DNA of 64,000 nucleotides from Gimesia algae (GCF_007746795.1 NZ_CP036343.1:5927357-5991356), one strand, 5' to 3'; counted from the first letter of the stretch, positions 2,840 through 17,986 are shown. Notes: generated from the letters alone by a model not told the origin. Translations and numbers: made by a program.

Positions 2840-5254
2840 ATGGATAAGCTGAAACAACTCCTGGAATCCTATTTCGAGATCCCCGTTGCGGGACCGGGCC
2901 AGGGTTCTGCCTGGAATTTACAGTGGAGTTCTCCCTGGCCTGGTTGGCTGCCAGACTGGGCTGTGCTCCTGCTGGGCAGCGGGATAGTTTTTCTATTGAT
3001 CTATGCGTATCTGAAAGATACCGCTCATCTGAATTTAAAAAAGCGTATCGTCCTGATTGGGATGCGACTGACACTGTTTGCCATTGTCATTCTGTTCCTC
3101 ACCCGGTTCACATTAACCATTCATAGAACCGGTTTGCCATTCGTTGCCGTCCTGATTGATGATTCTGCCAGTATGGGACTCGAAGATGACTACGCAGAAT
3201 CCGCTTCCGCCAGCGTGAGCAAACCGTTCCAGCAAGAGAGTCGGGGGAAAAACCGACTGGAACTCGTCAAAGATCTCCTGCTGCAAAACGAAGCCCGGTT
3301 TTTGACGGAACTTCAGGATAAACACAAACTGCGACTTTATCATTTTTCCGAAGAATGCCTGCCCCTGGGTGCACAAGGCCTGATCGATCTCCAGGATTAT
3401 CAGCGGACACAGGAACTCATAAAACAGCTGGAACCGGTGGGAAAAGAAACGCGTCCCTTTCATGCAGTACAAAAAGTTCTTAACGACTTTCGGGGGACTC
3501 CACCGACGGCCATCATTGTGCTTAGTGATGGTATATCCAGCACCGGTGACCTGGACCTCCTGTCAAGAGCGGGCGCACTTGCAAAATCCAAACTGGTTCC
3601 CATCTTTCCCGTTGGAGTCGGCAGCGAACAACCAGTCAAAGACCTGCAGTTGTATGACCTGCTGGTTGATGATGTCGCTTTTATCAACGACCCGATCACG
3701 GTGTCTGCCAAGGTCAAATTCTTCGGCATTCAGTCCGGTAACATGACTGTCAGTCTCAAAGAAGCGCGCACGGGTAGCCCGCTGGCGTCACGGCAGTTCC
3801 CGATCAATACCCAGAAAGATTCTCAGAAAATTGAACTGACCTTCACACCCACGAGACCCGGGTTACTCGAATATGTCATCCAGGTAGAACCTGTGAAAGG
3901 TGAAGTCAATCTCAAGAATAATCAGCAGACCGGTCAGCTATCTGTACTCGACCAGAAAATCCGTGTCCTGCTGGTCGATTCCGTTCCCCGTTATGAATAC
4001 CGCTATCTCAAGCATCTGCTGGAACGGGATAAAACAATCGAACTTCGCAGTATACTGCAGGAATCGGATCTGGAATATTCATCAGAGGATGCCACCGCCC
4101 TCGATTATTTTCCCGTCAAAAAAGAAGACCTGTACCAATATGATGTCGTCATTGTGGGCGATGCCGATCCTGCCTACTTCAGCCAGGCAGTATTTGAGAA
4201 CCTGGATCAGTTCGTTCGGGAAAAAGGGGGAGGACTGATCATGGTTGCCGGACCTCGTTTTTCTCCACACGCCTATACAAACACCAGTCTGGAAGAACTG
4301 CTTCCAGTCGAGATTTCCAAAAACAGGCAACCAACAGAATACAAACCGGTAATCGAAGGGTTTCAGCCCGAATTGACCACAGAAGGACAGTTCAGCACAT
4401 CCATCTTTCGGTTTGCAGACAATGCCGAAGAAAGTCAGGCGATCTGGAATAACCTGCCGGAACTTTACTGGTTTTATCCAGCAGATGAGATCAAACCGGG
4501 CGCCTCCGTGTTTGCAGTGCATCCCACACAAAAAGGAAAAAATGGTCAGAGAATCCCCATCATCTCGACCCAGCGTGTCGGCGCCGGCAAAGTGATCTTT
4601 AATGCTACGGATGACCTGTGGAGGTGGCGGGACCTGGTGGGTGACCTGTACTATTCCCGATTCTGGGTTCAAACGATTCGCTATCTGAGCCGATCCAAAC
4701 TCTTAAACCAGGAACAGGCTGTGGAACTGGCTCTGGACCGTAAAACTTATCAGCAAGGCGATACCGTACAGTTTCGTGTCAAATTTCTCGATGAGCAGTT
4801 AATCCCCTCTGATTCAAAAAAAGTGACGGTCATGCTCGAACGCCAGGGAGAGGCTTCGCGGCCCCTGCAGTTAACGCCTCTGGAAAAATCACCTGTAATT
4901 TTTGAGGGCAGCGTGTCAAATATCCAGGAAGGCGCCTACCACACCTGGGTCTCTCAACCCATTCTTCAGGGAAACCCGCCGTCGGTAGATTTTCGTGTCG
5001 AAATTTCTCAACGTGAACTGGTCAACCGGGATATGAATCAGAGTGATATGAAAAAAACGGCCCGGGAATCGCGTGGAAAATATTTCCCCATCTTTGCTGC
5101 CGAGCAGCTGCCTCAGTCCATACCGGCGGGTCATCCTGTTCCCCTGGAAAATGAAGAACCGATTCCTCTCTGGAACCGCTGGGAATTCCTGATTCTGTTT
5201 ACTTTACTGATCTCAGCAGAATGGCTGTTAAGAAAACGTTTTCGCTTAGTATAA
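2840..5254 (+). CDS. VWA / BatA-like membrane protein with glutamine-amidotransferase-like domain
   Basis: This inner-membrane protein of 804 residues resembles the BatA/aerotolerance-type proteins common in planctomycetes. Two membrane helices lie near residues 40-57 and 72-92. A von Willebrand A domain follows, with the MIDAS-like sequence DDSASMG at about 107 and IIVLSDGISSTGD further on. A class-I glutamine-amidotransferase-like fold (YDVVIVGDADPAYF, GGGLIMVAGP) comes next, then a beta-rich region and a final membrane helix (LILFTLLISAEWLL). An in-frame TTG at 2828 could also start it, but the ATG at 2840 is preferred. In related bacteria such genes follow MoxR and DUF58 genes; these are absent here, so the usual neighbourhood is incomplete. 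The function is probably in envelope complex assembly or stress, not proven for this family. Confidence 0.85.
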   Translation: MDKLKQLLESYFEIPVAGPGQGSAWNLQWSSPWPGWLPDWAVLLLGSGIVFLLIYAYLKDTAHLNLKKRIVLIGMRLTLFAIVILFLTRFTLTIHRTGLPFVAVLIDDSASMGLEDDYAESASASVSKPFQQESRGKNRLELVKDLLLQNEARFLTELQDKHKLRLYHFSEECLPLGAQGLIDLQDYQRTQELIKQLEPVGKETRPFHAVQKVLNDFRGTPPTAIIVLSDGISSTGDLDLLSRAGALAKSKLVPIFPVGVGSEQPVKDLQLYDLLVDDVAFINDPITVSAKVKFFGIQSGNMTVSLKEARTGSPLASRQFPINTQKDSQKIELTFTPTRPGLLEYVIQVEPVKGEVNLKNNQQTGQLSVLDQKIRVLLVDSVPRYEYRYLKHLLERDKTIELRSILQESDLEYSSEDATALDYFPVKKEDLYQYDVVIVGDADPAYFSQAVFENLDQFVREKGGGLIMVAGPRFSPHAYTNTSLEELLPVEISKNRQPTEYKPVIEGFQPELTTEGQFSTSIFRFADNAEESQAIWNNLPELYWFYPADEIKPGASVFAVHPTQKGKNGQRIPIISTQRVGAGKVIFNATDDLWRWRDLVGDLYYSRFWVQTIRYLSRSKLLNQEQAVELALDRKTYQQGDTVQFRVKFLDEQLIPSDSKKVTVMLERQGEASRPLQLTPLEKSPVIFEGSVSNIQEGAYHTWVSQPILQGNPPSVDFRVEISQRELVNRDMNQSDMKKTARESRGKYFPIFAAEQLPQSIPAGHPVPLENEEPIPLWNRWEFLILFTLLISAEWLLRKRFRLV

Positions 5255-11417: not shown

Positions 11418-11963
11418 ATGTCGACTTCCACATCGTCTTTACATTCAGATACCCGGGGGGTGTTTACATCTTTACTGAGTAAAGATCGTTTACGAATTTT
11501 CGGTTATATCCGAACACTCGTCCCCAATAATTCAGACGCGGAAGATGTTTATCAGCATGTCTGTTTAACACTTTGGAACAAGTTTGATGAATTCGATCAG
11601 GAACGGGATTTTTTCTCCTGGGCCTGTGGAGTCGCTTTTTTTACTGTATGCAATTATCGAAGAAGCATTGGAAGGGATCGACATTTTTTCAATCAGGAAC
11701 TCATTGAAACAATGTCGCATGAACGGGAAGAACATTTAAACAACCACGACATTCGACTCGATTTTCTTCAGGACTGTCTGGAGAATTTGAGTACCTCAGA
11801 CCAGCAGTTACTCAAAAATGCCGTATTTGAAAATCAATCGGTGAAAGACATCGCCAGGACTGCTGGAAAAACGATCCAAACTCTTTATAACCGCCTCTCA
11901 CTACTCAGACGTGAACTGGCGGCTTGTATATCTCGTAAGCTACAAAGTGAGCGTCAGGCATAA
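11418..11963 (+). CDS. ECF-type RNA polymerase sigma factor
   Basis: A sigma-70 family factor of 181 residues with only regions 2 and 4. Region 2 includes RLRIFGYIRTLVPNNSDAEDVYQHVCLTLWNKFDEFD split over residues 25-65. Region 4 (LSTSDQQLLKNAVFENQSVKDIARTAGKTIQTLYNRLSLLRREL, about 125-168) is the -35 binding helix-turn-helix. It would direct RNA polymerase to a small regulon. The stop and the next gene's ATG overlap (TAATG), so the neighbouring FecR-domain membrane protein is its likely cognate anti-sigma or signal receiver. This sigma/FecR pairing is frequent in planctomycetes and verrucomicrobia. Confidence 0.9.
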   Translation: MSTSTSSLHSDTRGVFTSLLSKDRLRIFGYIRTLVPNNSDAEDVYQHVCLTLWNKFDEFDQERDFFSWACGVAFFTVCNYRRSIGRDRHFFNQELIETMSHEREEHLNNHDIRLDFLQDCLENLSTSDQQLLKNAVFENQSVKDIARTAGKTIQTLYNRLSLLRRELAACISRKLQSERQA

Positions 11964-13636
11964 TGTCGGTACAGGACATCCCACCGAAATTCGAAAAACT
12001 GTTGAACCGGCTTCTGGATAGTCCGGAGGGAGAATTTTCAGCTTTAGAGTTCGAAGAATTTCAAACGATTCTGGAGAGCTGCCCGGAGGCGATGCTCCAG
12101 TATTTTGAATACATCGATATCAATACCGGTATCAAATCCGATTGTAGCGAACGGCTCAAATCTCTCGAACAGATTGTCACTCGCGAAACTCCTGATACGA
12201 TTGATAGCCCTCCTCCCGTCACTCAGATCAGCAGGCAGAGTCCGCGACGCGCTTCTGCGATTCACTACGCGCTGGTGGCTGCCGCATCCATCATGTTATT
12301 TCTGTTCCTGGAATGGAGTATTACCGGCGGCGGCTTCTGGAATCGGCCCCAGATAGTGAATATCGAACCACAGGTCACAGACCTGCCTTACTTCGCCACA
12401 CTCACGCGTGCTACCGATTGTGTCTGGGGTGGAGACTCTCCCCCCAAATTTTCCGGACAGAGACTGTTATCACAGGACCTCTTCCTGGAAGAAGGCTATG
12501 CAGAATTTCGCTTTGACACCGGAGTTCGCCTTGTGATTGAGGGCCCGACAATAATCAAGATAAATTCTGCCTGCTGTGCGACCGTTTCATCCGGGAAGGT
12601 GGTACTGCATGGCTATGAAGCGGCTCCGGAATTTGCATTAGTCACTCCAGAACTCACGTTCCACGATATTGGAACGGAATACGGCGCCAAAATCGACGCC
12701 GACGGTGAAGTCGATCTGCATGTGTTCGAAGGATCCGTACGCGTTGATCCCAACCAGGATAATAAACTGTTCGCTGAATCCGTCATCATTACCGAAGGTC
12801 AGGCGAAGCACCTCAAAGAGGACCGGATCGACGATATTCAGATCAAACCCGAAGATTTTAAACGGGAAGTCCCTACCAACCCCAAAAATCTTCAGGCGAT
12901 TCGCGAGGAAACCAGGGCATACGACAGCTTTCATCCCGTCGTCATCAGTGACCCGGCAAGCTTTTCAGACTGGAGAAACGCCGGGATTGGCTGGAAGAAC
13001 CCCTGGCGAAACAAGGTCAATGGTGGCGATCCCGCGCGGGGTGACAGCCAGCCTCTCAAATCACTGACTGGCTCCGAACTGGCTCAAGACCAATTGGGCC
13101 TCGTCGAACTGAGAAAAGGAAATACGGCCTGGCGCACCTTGGAAAGACCAGTCCGCCTGAATAAAGATGCCATCTACTATTTGAGTTTCTATATCCAGAA
13201 ACAGAATTCAGGGAATGGCGCAGAAAAGCAATACGGCAACCTCTCCCTGCAAACTTCGAACCCGGAAAAATATCAGAGCAGAATTTTACTTGGTATCACT
13301 TCACACAATTACTCTACCCTGCAGGCCGGAATGGAAGTCATCGAAAACGCTCCGCCTTTACAGACCGGGAAAACCTATTTCTTTGTCGCGAAGATTGTCG
13401 CCAGCGAAAACGCTTCGGATCAGGTCTTCATGCGTGCCTTCGCACCAGAAGAAACGATCCCCAGCCATGAGCCCCCCGTCTGGACTTGTGCTACGGGCCC
13501 CTTCAGAGATTCCTTTGTGTATGATCAGGTCAGACTGCACGCCGCCCGTAATGCCGAATTTCTGTTTGACGAACTACGCATTGGCACAACATGGGATTCA
13601 GTAATCAATACGCAGTCCCCAGAAATGGCTCCCTGA
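11963..13636 (+). CDS. FecR-domain transmembrane protein, putative anti-sigma partner
   Basis: A 557-residue protein with a cytoplasmic N-terminus of about 100 residues and one membrane helix (about 101-118, HYALVAAASIMLFLFLEW). A FecR-like beta domain follows (GVRLVIEGPTIIKI, SGKVVLHG, HDIGTEYGAKIDADGEVDLHV). The C-terminal carbohydrate-binding/LamG-like beta region includes SDWRNAGIGWKNPW and ends FDELRIGTTWDSV. The N-terminal segment would bind the sigma factor encoded immediately upstream, and the extracytoplasmic part would sense a ligand or cell-wall state. The architecture is clear; the anti-sigma role is inferred from translational coupling. Confidence 0.84.
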   Translation: MSVQDIPPKFEKLLNRLLDSPEGEFSALEFEEFQTILESCPEAMLQYFEYIDINTGIKSDCSERLKSLEQIVTRETPDTIDSPPPVTQISRQSPRRASAIHYALVAAASIMLFLFLEWSITGGGFWNRPQIVNIEPQVTDLPYFATLTRATDCVWGGDSPPKFSGQRLLSQDLFLEEGYAEFRFDTGVRLVIEGPTIIKINSACCATVSSGKVVLHGYEAAPEFALVTPELTFHDIGTEYGAKIDADGEVDLHVFEGSVRVDPNQDNKLFAESVIITEGQAKHLKEDRIDDIQIKPEDFKREVPTNPKNLQAIREETRAYDSFHPVVISDPASFSDWRNAGIGWKNPWRNKVNGGDPARGDSQPLKSLTGSELAQDQLGLVELRKGNTAWRTLERPVRLNKDAIYYLSFYIQKQNSGNGAEKQYGNLSLQTSNPEKYQSRILLGITSHNYSTLQAGMEVIENAPPLQTGKTYFFVAKIVASENASDQVFMRAFAPEETIPSHEPPVWTCATGPFRDSFVYDQVRLHAARNAEFLFDELRIGTTWDSVINTQSPEMAP

Positions 13637-13934
13637 GATTCAGCCTGACCCAGATTAACCTCGTATTTTTGCTGAACGTACCCCGGGAAGTTTGCCACAC
13701 GCCCCAAGGTGAATCCCCATTCCCAAAGACACGGCATTAACCTCATATATCGCGATTTCACGATAAATTCATATTTCTGTGTTTTTTAATAGTAGAAAAC
13801 GAGACTTGAATGACAATCACTCTACAGCAGGCGACCCTTGAATGTAAGCAGGCTTAATTCACCTGAGTAGTCAGGTATTTTATTCAACTAGTCCCTGAAC
13901 GGTGGGGCTTGAGTTATTTGCTCAAGCCCCATTT
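13637..13934 (+). other. Intergenic region with tandem hairpins, possible small RNA
   Basis: About 300 bp without a supportable gene. It contains a short stem ACCTGA-gtag-TCAGGT (13861-13876) followed by ATTTTATT, and 27 bases later a strong terminator. The terminator lies about 270 bp after the last stop codon, unusually far for a simple gene end. A small RNA ending there is possible. No clear promoter is visible. Confidence 0.35.
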
Positions 13935-13937
13935 TTA
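13904..13937 (+). terminator. Rho-independent terminator
   Basis: GGGGCTTGAG and CTCAAGCCCC form a perfect 10-bp stem around a seven-base loop, followed by ATTTTTATT on the plus strand. It ends transcription from the left and protects the convergent GntR-family gene. The opposite strand has no T-run. Confidence 0.9.
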
Positions 13938-14624
13938 TTGTTCCTGAGCTTCTGAAACAAGCCCCTGAAACTGCATCCGGATCATCACGCGGGCATGCTC
14001 AAGATCTCGATTGCGGATCGCTGCCGCCAGCTCTGAATGCTCCCAGATAATTCGCGCTTTCTGGCCTGAACTGGATTGACCGGTCTCAGAGATGTTTCGA
14101 AAATACTTCGCCAGAATCTGCTGCATCCCTGCTACATACATGGAATTTGTCATTTCCAGTACCAGAGAATGAAACGCCAGATCTAGTTCGATTTCCTTCT
14201 CCCAATCTTCTCGCTCAAGATATTGCTCCATCTCAACAACGATCTGATCCAGTCGATCCAGTTGATCCACAGTCGCATACTTGACCGCCAGCTCAATGGC
14301 ACCAATTTCCAACACATAACGCAACATTCCCAACTCACGCTGCTCCTGCTGAGAAACAGCCAACAAGGGAATGCTGTCTGAGAGTAGCTGCATCAAGTCA
14401 GGACACTGCACGACCAGCCCTTTACGCTGCCTGACATCCAGAATCCCCAAGGCCCGTAAACGGCTGACCGCCTCTCTCACAATGGGCCTGGAAACCTGGT
14501 ACTCCTCAGCCAGCTGCCCCTCAGTCATGAAAACATGGCCTTCAGGTAGCTGTTCCTTCATAATCCTCCGACGGATTTTCTCCGCTAAAACTGTCGCCAT
14601 CGAATTTTGTAGTGGTTCAGCCAT
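13935..14624 (-). CDS. GntR-family (FadR-type, FCD domain) transcriptional regulator
   Basis: A 229-residue cytoplasmic repressor. It has an N-terminal winged helix-turn-helix (EGQLAEEYQVSRPIVREAVSRLRALGILDVRQRKG) and an all-helical C-terminal FCD ligand/metal domain (ELDLAFHSLVLEMTNS, IIWEHSELAAAIRNRDLEHARVM). An in-frame ATG at 14645 would place a putative operator inside the coding region, so the ATG at 14624 is preferred. It is transcribed away from the aldolase/aminotransferase operon, and near-identical sequences lie next to both starts. It is therefore likely to control itself and that operon in response to a sugar acid or aldolase intermediate. The ligand is unknown. Confidence 0.9.
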   Translation of the reverse strand: MAEPLQNSMATVLAEKIRRRIMKEQLPEGHVFMTEGQLAEEYQVSRPIVREAVSRLRALGILDVRQRKGLVVQCPDLMQLLSDSIPLLAVSQQEQRELGMLRYVLEIGAIELAVKYATVDQLDRLDQIVVEMEQYLEREDWEKEIELDLAFHSLVLEMTNSMYVAGMQQILAKYFRNISETGQSSSGQKARIIWEHSELAAAIRNRDLEHARVMIRMQFQGLVSEAQEQ

Positions 14625-14631
14625 ATTGCAC

Positions 14632-14645
14632 TTATTATCATACAT
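14632..14645. promoter_or_regulatory. Putative GntR operator, regulator side
   Basis: TTATTATCATACAT lies 8-21 bp upstream of the preferred start of the GntR-family gene. The core TTATTATCATACA recurs at 14754-14766 before the aldolase gene. Its reverse complement TGTATGATAATAA resembles the T-G-T-A-T-rich sites bound by FadR-type regulators. Confidence 0.6.
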
Positions 14646-14752
14646 TTAAGTTATCCCTGTCAATTTCCAAAAGAGTGAATTCACAGCAAATAAACCGTAT
14701 TAAAAGACTTTACCCAGCATTACCCAATAATTCCCCTATCACACTTGCGGAC

Positions 14753-14770
14753 TTTATTATCATACAATAA
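14753..14770. promoter_or_regulatory. Putative GntR operator, aldolase side
   Basis: TTTATTATCATACAATAA shares 13 identical bases with the site at 14632-14645. It is symmetrical at its ends (TTATT/AATAA). It lies about 53 bp before the aldolase start, where a repressor would overlap the promoter. Confidence 0.6.
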
Positions 14771-14822
14771 CGTAATATCCTGAAGTATTCACACTCCTCA
14801 ATACAGAAACAGGAATGACTCG

Positions 14823-15653
14823 ATGAGAGCCAGCCGTATCAAACACAAGCTCAGCCAGGACGAACCGGTACTGATTACTCAGTTACATCTGCTGGATCCC
14901 TCACTCTTCGAACTCACCAGCCTGATGGGCTTCGATGGCATCTGGATGGACATGGAGCACCATACTTATAGCCTGGAGACAGCCACACAACTCATGCGGG
15001 CAGCCCGCGTCGGCTCCTCCGATATTCTTGCCCGACCTGCTAATGGAGAATTCATGAGAATCGGTCGCATGCTCGAAGCGGGGGCGCAAGGCATCATGTA
15101 TCCTCGCTGCAGTAATGCTGCTGAAGCAGCGGAAGTCGTGAAGTGGTCCAAGTTCGCCCCTCTGGGGAAACGAGGTTTCGACGGGTCCGGTGCGGACATG
15201 CCTTACTGCACCATGCCTGTCTCTGATTATGTAAACCAGGCCAACGAACACACTTTTATCACCATTCAACTCGAAGAACAGTCCGCCGTCGATCAGGCGG
15301 AAGAAATCGCTGCAGTCCCAGGCGTCGATGCCCTGATGCTGGGTCCTGCTGACTTCTCGATTCTTGAAGGTTTTCCCGGGCAGTTCAATCATCCACAAAT
15401 GCAAGCTGCGATCGAGACGATTGCCACTGCCGCTGCCAATCAGGGTAAACACTGGGGCATGCCTACGTTTAATCTGGAACACGCCCAGGAATTGCTGCAG
15501 CGGGGCGCAAGAATGCTGTATCACATGGCTGATATCATCTTCGTCAAAAACGGCCTCGAACAGATGCAGCAGCAATTCAGCCAGATCGGTTTGACATTCG
15601 ATAATCAGCTGACAGATTCAGCCACACACTACACGCAGGGAAAGAAATCATGA
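14823..15653 (+). CDS. HpcH/HpaI-family aldolase
   Basis: A 276-residue class II (metal-dependent) aldolase of the HpcH/HpaI/citrate-lyase-like TIM-barrel family. These enzymes cleave 2-keto-3-deoxy sugar acids or 4-hydroxy-2-oxo acids to pyruvate or an analogue and an aldehyde. Family signs are FDGIWMDMEHH near residue 40, RPANGEFMRIGRMLEAGAQGIMYPR near 78-103 (split landmark), VPGVDALMLGPADFS and KHWGMPTF. The stop overlaps the next ATG (ATGA), so the following fused enzyme is co-translated. The exact substrate is not determined by the sequence. Confidence 0.88.
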   Translation: MRASRIKHKLSQDEPVLITQLHLLDPSLFELTSLMGFDGIWMDMEHHTYSLETATQLMRAARVGSSDILARPANGEFMRIGRMLEAGAQGIMYPRCSNAAEAAEVVKWSKFAPLGKRGFDGSGADMPYCTMPVSDYVNQANEHTFITIQLEEQSAVDQAEEIAAVPGVDALMLGPADFSILEGFPGQFNHPQMQAAIETIATAAANQGKHWGMPTFNLEHAQELLQRGARMLYHMADIIFVKNGLEQMQQQFSQIGLTFDNQLTDSATHYTQGKKS

Positions 15654-17986
15654 CTGAGTTTTTACCCGATGATCAGGAACTGTTTGCCAGCCAGCTCAAA
15701 GACTTTGTCCCCCCCGACAGTTTTGATGCCCATGCCCACCTGTATCGGCCACAGGATGCCATTACCAGTCTGCCATCCGCCGCCGAAAACGAACAGGGCT
15801 TTTCAGGCTGGAATGAATTCTGTAAGAACCTGGAACTCTGGATGGGCCCCCTCCGCCCTTCTGCGGGACTGTTTTTTGCCATCCCCAAGCCAACCCTGGA
15901 TCGCAAACCCGCCAATCAGTTCATTCTGAGTGAACTGGCAGATCAGCCCGGCTGTCGTGCACTCCTGCTTGTCACGCCTGAAGATTCACCGGAGGAAGTA
16001 GAAGCACAAATCCTCGCTGGCAAATACAGCGGCTTCAAAGTCTACCATGTCTACGCCAATCGAAAAGATACCCTGCAGGCAGAGCCTCAGGAATACATTC
16101 CGGAATGGGTCTGGGAACTCTCCCACCGATACAGCCTGGCCATTATGCTGCACATGGTCCGAGCGCGGGCCATCGCAGACCCCATCAATCAGACCTATAT
16201 CCGCGAGCACTGTCTGCAGTACCCAGATGCGAAACTCATTCTCGCACATGCGGCCCGGGGTTTCTGTGGAAACCACACCACGGAAGGCATTGCATCCCTC
16301 CGCGGTCTGGACAACGTCTTCTTCGACACTTCTGCCGTCTGCGAGTCACAGCCTTTTGAAGCCATCTTGCGCGAATTTGGTACCAGTCGCCTGCTGTTCG
16401 GAACCGATTTTTCTGTCAGCGAAATTTATGGTCGCTGTGTGAGCATCGGCGACGGTTTCCTCTGGCTGGGCGAACAGAATGTGGAATGGGAATCGTCCAC
16501 CTTCGCTAAGCCAGTTCGTGTGGGACTGGAATCACTGCTGGCAATCAAACAGGCCTGCCATACACTACGCCTGAATGATGCGGACGTCGAACGCATCTTC
16601 TGCCACAACGCCCGTGCCATGCTGGGAATTGAAACAAACTCAACCGCTAATATCACTCAGGACACCTATAAACGGGCCAAACAGTTAATTCCCGGTGGTA
16701 CCCAGCTACTGAGCAAGCGGCCTGAAATGTTCGCCCCTGACTGCTGGCCCGCCTACTACCGGGAAGCGAATGGCTGTGAAGTCATCGACCTCGATGGAAA
16801 AGTTTATCACGACCTGTCCACTTCGGGCATCGGCTCCTGCCTGCTGGGCTACCGTGATCCTGATGTGACCGACGCTGTGGTTCGTCGCGTTCAACTTGGC
16901 TCCATGAGTTCTCTGAATTCACCCGAAGAAGTTGAACTTGCCGAACTGTTAACCACCCTGCACCCCTGGTCCGACCAGGCTCGCTTCTGCCGGACCGGCG
17001 GAGAATCGATGGCCATCGCCGTCCGCATCGCCCGCGCGAAAACAGGTCGCGACGAAATTGCCTTGTGCGGTTATCATGGCTGGAGCGACTGGTACCTGGC
17101 AACAAACCTGCCTCGGAAATCAACAGAGCCCGGAACGTCCCTCGACAAGCATCTTTTGCCCGGTCTGGATCCGGCCGGTGTCCCCGCTGGCTTGTCCGAA
17201 ACCACACATCCCTTCACCTACAATGACATCGACGGCCTGAGACATATTATCAGAGAACGAGGATCAAAACTGGCAGCGATCGTGATGGAGCCAACGCGTT
17301 ACATTCACCCTGACCCCGGCTTTCTGGAAGCAGTCCGCGAACTCTGTGATGAATGCGGCGCGGTCTTGGTGATTGATGAAATCACAACGGGCTGGCGTCT
17401 CGCTCTGGGCGGCGCTCATCTGCACTATGGAATTGAACCGGACATCGCTGTCTTTGCAAAAGCATTGGGGAACGGGCATCCGGTGGCGGCTATCATCGGC
17501 AGACGTTCCGTGATGGATGCAGCCGAAACTTCATTCATCTCCAGTACCTACTGGACCGAAGGCGTGGGCTCCACGGCTGCCCTGGCCACCATTCGGAAAA
17601 TGCAGACGGTCAATGTCCGCGAACACATCCATCAGATTGGTGAAGCCTTCCGCACAGGCTGGCTGGAACTGGGCCAACAGCATGGAATACCAGTGAAAGC
17701 CGTCGGTCATGCCGTCCTGCTGCATCATCAGTTCGACCACCCCCAGGCTGCCGAACTGGGCACACTCTTCACCATTCGTATGCTGGAAAAAGGCTTCCTG
17801 ACCGGGAGTGGCTTCTATCCCACGCTCGCCCACCAGCCACGTCATATCCGGAATTACTTCGCTGCTGCCGACTCGGTTTTTGCCGAACTCACATCGGCTC
17901 TCTCGTCTGGCGATCTTTCCAGCCGTCTTAAAACACCAGTCAGGCACTCCGGCTTCGCCCGACTGACTCCCAGCCCGAAGACATAA
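15650..17986 (+). CDS. Fused amidohydrolase-2 / class-III aminotransferase
   Basis: A 778-residue two-domain enzyme. Residues 1 to about 325 are a metal-dependent amidohydrolase-2 (TIM-barrel) domain with HAH at 28-30, LAHAARGF (His200) and FGTDFS (Asp253). From about 335 a PLP fold-type I class-III aminotransferase begins, close to glutamate-1-semialdehyde aminomutase. It has KRAKQLIPGG, RTGGESMAIAVRIAR, YHGWSD, VIDEI (Asp576/Glu577) and AKALGNG with the likely PLP-binding Lys604. Both catalytic sets look intact. It overlaps the aldolase by 4 bp. The fusion suggests channelling of a product from hydrolase or decarboxylase to transaminase, but the substrate is unknown. Confidence 0.88.
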   Translation: MTEFLPDDQELFASQLKDFVPPDSFDAHAHLYRPQDAITSLPSAAENEQGFSGWNEFCKNLELWMGPLRPSAGLFFAIPKPTLDRKPANQFILSELADQPGCRALLLVTPEDSPEEVEAQILAGKYSGFKVYHVYANRKDTLQAEPQEYIPEWVWELSHRYSLAIMLHMVRARAIADPINQTYIREHCLQYPDAKLILAHAARGFCGNHTTEGIASLRGLDNVFFDTSAVCESQPFEAILREFGTSRLLFGTDFSVSEIYGRCVSIGDGFLWLGEQNVEWESSTFAKPVRVGLESLLAIKQACHTLRLNDADVERIFCHNARAMLGIETNSTANITQDTYKRAKQLIPGGTQLLSKRPEMFAPDCWPAYYREANGCEVIDLDGKVYHDLSTSGIGSCLLGYRDPDVTDAVVRRVQLGSMSSLNSPEEVELAELLTTLHPWSDQARFCRTGGESMAIAVRIARAKTGRDEIALCGYHGWSDWYLATNLPRKSTEPGTSLDKHLLPGLDPAGVPAGLSETTHPFTYNDIDGLRHIIRERGSKLAAIVMEPTRYIHPDPGFLEAVRELCDECGAVLVIDEITTGWRLALGGAHLHYGIEPDIAVFAKALGNGHPVAAIIGRRSVMDAAETSFISSTYWTEGVGSTAALATIRKMQTVNVREHIHQIGEAFRTGWLELGQQHGIPVKAVGHAVLLHHQFDHPQAAELGTLFTIRMLEKGFLTGSGFYPTLAHQPRHIRNYFAAADSVFAELTSALSSGDLSSRLKTPVRHSGFARLTPSPKT

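Follow-up and report, generated by a model that had tools for sequence, protein, structure and literature searches.

We have found, in a 64,000-nt stretch (the window) of the complete 7.93-Mb genome of the planctomycete Gimesia algae, a gene for a protein in which an amidohydrolase domain is joined to a class-III aminotransferase domain; it overlaps the end of a gene for an aldolase of the HpcH/HpaI family (Table 1). Relatives of the fusion protein are common in bacteria of the Planctomycetes–Verrucomicrobia–Chlamydiae (PVC) group. We tentatively read the protein as a two-step enzyme of a conserved and undescribed PVC catabolic pathway, whose substrate would be an amino sugar acid derived from glycans and perhaps akin to the nonulosonic acids (pseudaminic/legionaminic-like), and we hold this reading at somewhat under an even chance.

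Domains and catalytic residues

Both domains score above their Pfam cut-offs within one chain of 778 aa: Amidohydro_2 (PF04909) at residues 26-327 (50.4 bits, cut-off 26.4) and Aminotran_3 (PF00202) at residues 368-717 (157 bits, cut-off 30.5). The AlphaFold model of the whole fusion has a predicted local distance difference test score (pLDDT) of 87 and a predicted template modelling score (pTM) of 0.86; for the amidohydrolase domain alone the pLDDT is 95. An earlier note on this DNA had described such a fusion, with both domains complete and a 4-bp overlap with the aldolase gene, and in these respects it was right. The stop codon of the aldolase gene and the start codon of the fusion gene share ATGA at 15650-15653, and the overlap is kept in L032, L033 and L034 (labels of this form denote loci that we compared).

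Residues H28, H30, K130, H168, H200 and D253 of the amidohydrolase domain, as well as K604, D576 and G450-E452 of the aminotransferase domain, are conserved at 97% or above in 76 fused proteins and are invariant in the 41-row alignments. Five of them (H28, H30, H168, H200 and D253), invariant in the 41 aligned fused relatives, make up the metal-ligand pattern HxH, H, H, D. In fold comparison the closest structures to the amidohydrolase domain are the COG3618 lactonases 4DO7/4DLF (VIA Z 22.6, root-mean-square deviation 3.0 over 254 residues), followed by LigI-like lactonases and decarboxylases; by its closest fold the domain is thus a candidate lactonase. Decarboxylases of the same fold reach VIA Z ~21, which would suit the breakdown of an aromatic or cyclic acid, the amidohydrolase acting as a decarboxylase (gamma-resorcylate or ACMSD-like) before a transamination. 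No ring-cleavage genes were seen near the relatives, whose neighbours are of carbohydrate type, and we consider this explanation highly improbable.

A role of the aminotransferase domain in haem synthesis was also considered. The domain scores 202 bits against HemL (TIGR00713), below the equivalog cut-off of 527.3, and 226 bits against PRK06209 (NF004856), below the equivalog cut-off of 486. A separate gene elsewhere in the genome scores 611.5 against the HemL model and is the true HemL. Since the genome holds its own HemL and the fusion does not reach the cut-off, the HemL role was ruled out.

The match of the aldolase to HpcH/HpaI (PF03328; Table 1) exceeds the cut-off of 25 bits, and its scores against the equivalog models of HpaI (TIGR02311, 130.1 bits) and GarL (TIGR03239, 122.5 bits) are below the respective cut-offs of 368.8 and 406.75. 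The nearest solved structures are 3qz6, HpaI and YfaU; residues H46, R71, E151 and D177 align with conserved HpaI positions and are kept in relatives.

Distribution and repeated joining of the domains

We collected 76 full-length fused relatives from Planctomycetota, Verrucomicrobiota and Lentisphaerae, and among the best 80 genome-contig matches most are full length, from the same three groups. In even samples a strong full-length fusion is present in 12 of the 294 genomes from Planctomycetota and in 8 of the 289 that make up the Verrucomicrobiota sample; no plasmid-borne copy covering 80% of the query was found. The many PVC relatives rule out a fusion unique to this genome, and conservation across the 76 rules out a chance event or sequencing artefact. 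The scarcity of relatives implied by the earlier note did not hold. Of the two things that, according to the note, would together refute it, a wide spread and a characterisation of the fusion, the first was found; the open-access papers searched contain no characterisation.

Fusion proteins of group B (L045-L066) share 63-69% identity with the window's protein in the aminotransferase domain but only ~25% in the amidohydrolase domain. In the aminotransferase tree group B is nested inside the planctomycete group A; in the amidohydrolase tree it groups with a stand-alone Lentisphaerae gene (L102). The approximately unbiased test rejects a single amidohydrolase clade (A+B, p 1.7e-33; A+A2+B, p 0.0016), with p-values that are indicative, given long branches and groups named after a first tree, whereas the contrast in identity is direct. 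A single lineage of aminotransferases is thus found joined to two unrelated lineages of amidohydrolases, and fusion or domain exchange has therefore recurred.

The two activities are also found on separate adjacent genes (L102, L118, L184, L185, L186 and L191), mostly with the amidohydrolase upstream, as in the fusion. At L108 and L111 the aminotransferase is kept without the amidohydrolase. That the same aminotransferase lineage was joined more than once, to different amidohydrolases, offers a useful example from nature of how consecutive steps are coupled.

Relation to nonulosonate biosynthesis

Outside the catabolic set, the nearest unfused relatives of the aminotransferase mostly come from loci that also encode NeuB, PseB, PseC, PseG and CMP-transferases, in Halorussus, Pseudosulfitobacter, planctomycetes and verrucomicrobia. 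In a uniform scan a nonulosonate marker was found at 14 of 31 aminotransferase-only relatives (13 of them with at least two markers) and at 0 of 21 control class-III loci, with L121, which fell in both sets, counted as a control. The amidohydrolase-bearing loci do not have the makeup of a nonulosonate biosynthesis locus (NeuB, PseB, PseC, PseG or CMP-transferase nearby): none of the 89 has two or more such markers, and at 50 of them another catabolic marker is present. With the exception of L118 and of L116 and L200, whose marking is weak, the catabolic sequences make up a single clade of the tree (Shimodaira–Hasegawa-like approximate likelihood ratio support of 89 in a quick tree) within the nonulosonate group.

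Flagella, capsules and archaeal surfaces are decorated with bacterial nonulosonic acids, whose natural recycling has, to our knowledge, been little described. The pathway might degrade nonulosonic acids of the pseudaminic/legionaminic type themselves, with the aldolase taking the place of sialic-acid lyase and the aminotransferase removing the amino group that its biosynthetic relatives install. The company of the nearest unfused aminotransferases and the branching of the catabolic clade from within the nonulosonate group argue for it, as do sialidase-like and DHDPS-family genes adjoining some loci. Class-III aminotransferases are likewise placed in such loci in the papers on the Aeromonas flagellin glycosylation island (PMC7874193) and Legionella serogroup 6 (PMC3694923). 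Against this, homology of the aminotransferase suggests similar chemistry only, no true sialidase was recognised, and the regulator is a weak match to NanR (NF003011; 74.7 bits, cut-off 260). On balance we regard this explanation as rather doubtful. Beyond those two papers, which served as context, the open-access papers searched hold no description of the fusion, of class-III aminotransferases in nonulosonate loci or of nonulosonate degradation.

A separate observation concerns the biosynthetic loci. Pseudaminic/legionaminic-type loci L112 (2954-5023), L153 (11311-13344) and L198 encode a class-III aminotransferase and a CMP-sugar synthetase in one chain, and the Pseudosulfitobacter aminotransferase is fused to its CMP-transferase; a role of such fusions in nonulosonate biosynthesis was not found in the open-access papers searched.

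Gene neighbourhoods and a second locus

Neighbours of group B and of several other relatives include the HpcH/HpaI aldolase, Gfo/Idh and SDR (short-chain dehydrogenase/reductase) enzymes, a sodium:solute symporter (SSF), a PhyH oxygenase, a GntR regulator and PROP, a family of secreted propeller proteins (~500 aa) with no Pfam family above cut-off and weakly GH32-like. The set is contiguous in L118, where the symporter, sialidase-like/PROP protein, aldolase, Gfo/Idh, PhyH, SDR, aminotransferase and amidohydrolase genes follow each other on one strand; in L066 and L186 it is almost contiguous. In L111, an Actinomycetota metagenome-assembled genome, GntR-FCD, aminotransferase, Gfo/Idh and aldolase genes occur. 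In two planctomycetes PROP is joined to a sialidase-like protein with no Pfam family (L118 15257-17572 and L159 6919-9309); in L102 the sialidase-like gene stands alone beside the split amidohydrolase–aminotransferase pair. Assignment of the PROP and sialidase-like proteins to a recognisable glycosidase family was dropped, as no Pfam family exceeds its cut-off.

The G. algae genome has at least six PROP copies (G000 2858834-2860231 among them; L066 has one at 3608-5077). At 2.857 Mb, 3.1 Mb away, it holds a second locus, conserved across the genus, with genes for PROP, Gfo/Idh, SDR, a GntR-LacI regulator, an M14 peptidase and a sialidase-like protein. The short, self-contained route suggested by the earlier note is not supported: relatives add two or more dehydrogenases, a symporter and secreted proteins of carbohydrate-active-like type, some of the extra genes lie at the second locus in this genome, and the aldolase adjoins the fusion in a minority of relatives only.

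Across the 294 genomes the amidohydrolase–aminotransferase combination and Gfo/Idh coincide in 13 of 15 genomes whichever of the two is taken first (Fisher p 7e-19, uncorrected for ancestry); within the family, with the genus collapsed, p is 0.01. The sets compared were defined after the hits had been seen.

The lactonase-like fold, the HpaI/YfaU-type aldolase and the sugar-dehydrogenase-like Gfo and SDR enzymes would also fit degradation of a neutral or acidic sugar by a non-phosphorylative route, in which the aminotransferase domain merely recycles a keto acid or plays a side role. That part of the protein, however, is the best conserved, with invariant pyridoxal phosphate (PLP) residues; it is kept alone at some loci, while the amidohydrolase is swapped. 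We find this explanation improbable.

Proposed pathway

In the pathway for a glycan-derived amino sugar acid that we favour, the secreted propeller and sialidase-like proteins would free the sugar and the sodium symporter would take it into the cell. Oxidation by the Gfo/Idh and SDR enzymes might then turn it into a keto-sugar or a lactone. The amidohydrolase domain would open the lactone, or carry out a related hydrolysis, and the aminotransferase domain would remove or move the amino group by PLP chemistry. Finally, the aldolase would cleave the 2-keto-3-deoxy acid so formed, giving pyruvate and an aldehyde. The earlier note's idea that hydrolysis, nitrogen chemistry and aldol cleavage follow one another gains support because amidohydrolase, aminotransferase and aldolase recur together.

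An evolutionary account may be added, that an aminotransferase of nonulosonate biosynthesis was recruited and repeatedly joined to unrelated amidohydrolases in an undescribed pathway degrading nonulosonic (pseudaminic/legionaminic-like) or other rare amino-sugar acids; as a whole it is doubtful.

Several points weigh against the pathway that we favour. The substrate is one that we infer. Class-III PLP enzymes may be transaminases, mutases, lyases or epimerases, and lactonase is no more than a candidate activity for the amidohydrolase, because Amidohydro_2-fold decarboxylases have nearly equal Z. The PROP and sialidase-like proteins have only weak GH32-like or BNR-like similarity, without a Pfam match above cut-off. 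Shared ancestry confounds the co-occurrence, and two genomes carry the aldolase and Gfo/Idh without a strong amidohydrolase–aminotransferase match. Several aminotransferase-only loci bear neither nonulosonate nor catabolic markers. The two loci of this genome carry different regulators, and a search for the operator motif (see below) near the second locus did not find it.

Planctomycetes and verrucomicrobia live on complex glycans, and their conserved gene set, whose aminotransferase is shared with nonulosonate biosynthesis, makes a concrete, testable candidate for nonulosonate recycling.

Gene layout and regulation

Table 1. Features of the amidohydrolase–aminotransferase locus in the window
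Feature	Coordinates	Strand	Remarks
GntR/FCD transcriptional regulator	13935..14645	(-)	Divergent from the aldolase-fusion operon; Pfam GntR and FCD
Predicted operator 1, TTATTATCATACA	14632..14644	(+)	Overlaps the -10 box of the regulator promoter
Predicted operator 2, TTATTATCATACAATAA	14754..14770	(+)	~55 bp upstream of the aldolase start
HpcH/HpaI-family class II pyruvate aldolase, 276 aa	14823..15653	(+)	Pfam 90.5 bits, solved relatives, residue conservation
Fusion protein, 778 aa	15650..17986	(+)	Amidohydrolase ~1-330, then class-III aminotransferase ~336-773; Pfam, alignment, AlphaFold
Amidohydrolase domain of fusion	15650..16639	(+)	H28, H30, K130, H168, H200, D253: candidate metal ligands and acid/base
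Class-III aminotransferase domain of fusion	16640..17983	(+)	K604 (PLP lysine), D576, G450-G451-E452

The regulator scores above the Pfam cut-offs for FCD (72.2 bits) and GntR (46.9 bits). A sigma-70-like promoter of its gene (-35/-10 at 14663-14634) overlaps the first ATG (14645), the strong -10 box at 14639-14634 lying downstream of this codon, which suggests that the real start is Met8 (14624) or Met16 (14600).

The 13-bp motif TTATTATCATACA has exactly two exact copies in the 7.93 Mb, both within or at the edge of the 177-bp gap between regulator and aldolase genes. Both operator positions are retained in related Gimesia; operator 1 is kept in L032, L033 and L130, and in 12 of 13 bases in L131. 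Operator 2 is close to TNGTNNNACNA, which we take to be the FadR-type GntR half-site pattern and which the L034 and L130 copies match exactly. The GntR/FCD protein would repress the divergent operon through the two operator copies. When three mismatches are allowed, the motif turns up no more often than in a reversed control, and a wider regulon is therefore not claimed.

The motif pair in the promoter gap supports GntR control of the operon that the earlier note had placed at 14624-17986. The layout is different: a divergent pair, with the regulator running one way and the two-gene operon the other. The note's left edge is the eighth codon of the regulator, whose coding sequence extends left to 13935.

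Beyond the regulator, a strong terminator-like hairpin of 14 pairs (13901-13933) lies between its 3′ end and the gene for a 557-aa protein without a Pfam match. An ECF-type (extracytoplasmic function) sigma factor gene (11418-11963) overlaps the latter, the two spanning 11418-13636, and they are probably a sigma/anti-sigma pair.

Comparison with known systems

With HemL (glutamate-1-semialdehyde aminomutase, GSAM) and GSAM-like class-III aminotransferases, the aminotransferase domain shares the class-III fold, the PLP lysine and the phosphate-binding motif, with ~29% identity to solved HemL; it differs in scoring far under the HemL model cut-off and in its fusion to an amidohydrolase. The COG3618/Amidohydro_2 lactonases (L-fucono-1,5-lactonase, 4DLF/4DO7; 2-pyrone-4,6-dicarboxylate lactonase, LigI) have the fold and the HxH, H, H, D pattern of the amidohydrolase domain, but it is ~16% identical to the COG3618 enzymes, is fused to an aminotransferase and has the extra invariant K130. 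The aldolase belongs to the family of HpaI, YfaU and GarL and has the same conserved H, R, E and D positions, though it stays well under each equivalog cut-off.

Class-III aminotransferases of pseudaminic/legionaminic loci, such as those of Pseudosulfitobacter and Halorussus, are 45-53% identical to the window domain in the loci compared here and fall in the same tree; those of Aeromonas (PMC7874193) and Legionella (PMC3694923) are likened by locus description, outside the identity comparison. The biosynthetic enzymes have CMP-sugar synthetases and NeuB as neighbours or fusion partners, whereas the enzyme of the window has an amidohydrolase as its fusion partner and an aldolase as its neighbour. 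As a whole the system works like the sialic acid catabolic (nan) operons, with a GntR/FCD regulator, an SSS-type transporter, a pyruvate aldolase and, in relatives, sialidase-like secreted proteins; in contrast to them, its aldolase comes from a different superfamily, and Gfo/Idh, SDR and the amidohydrolase–aminotransferase are added.

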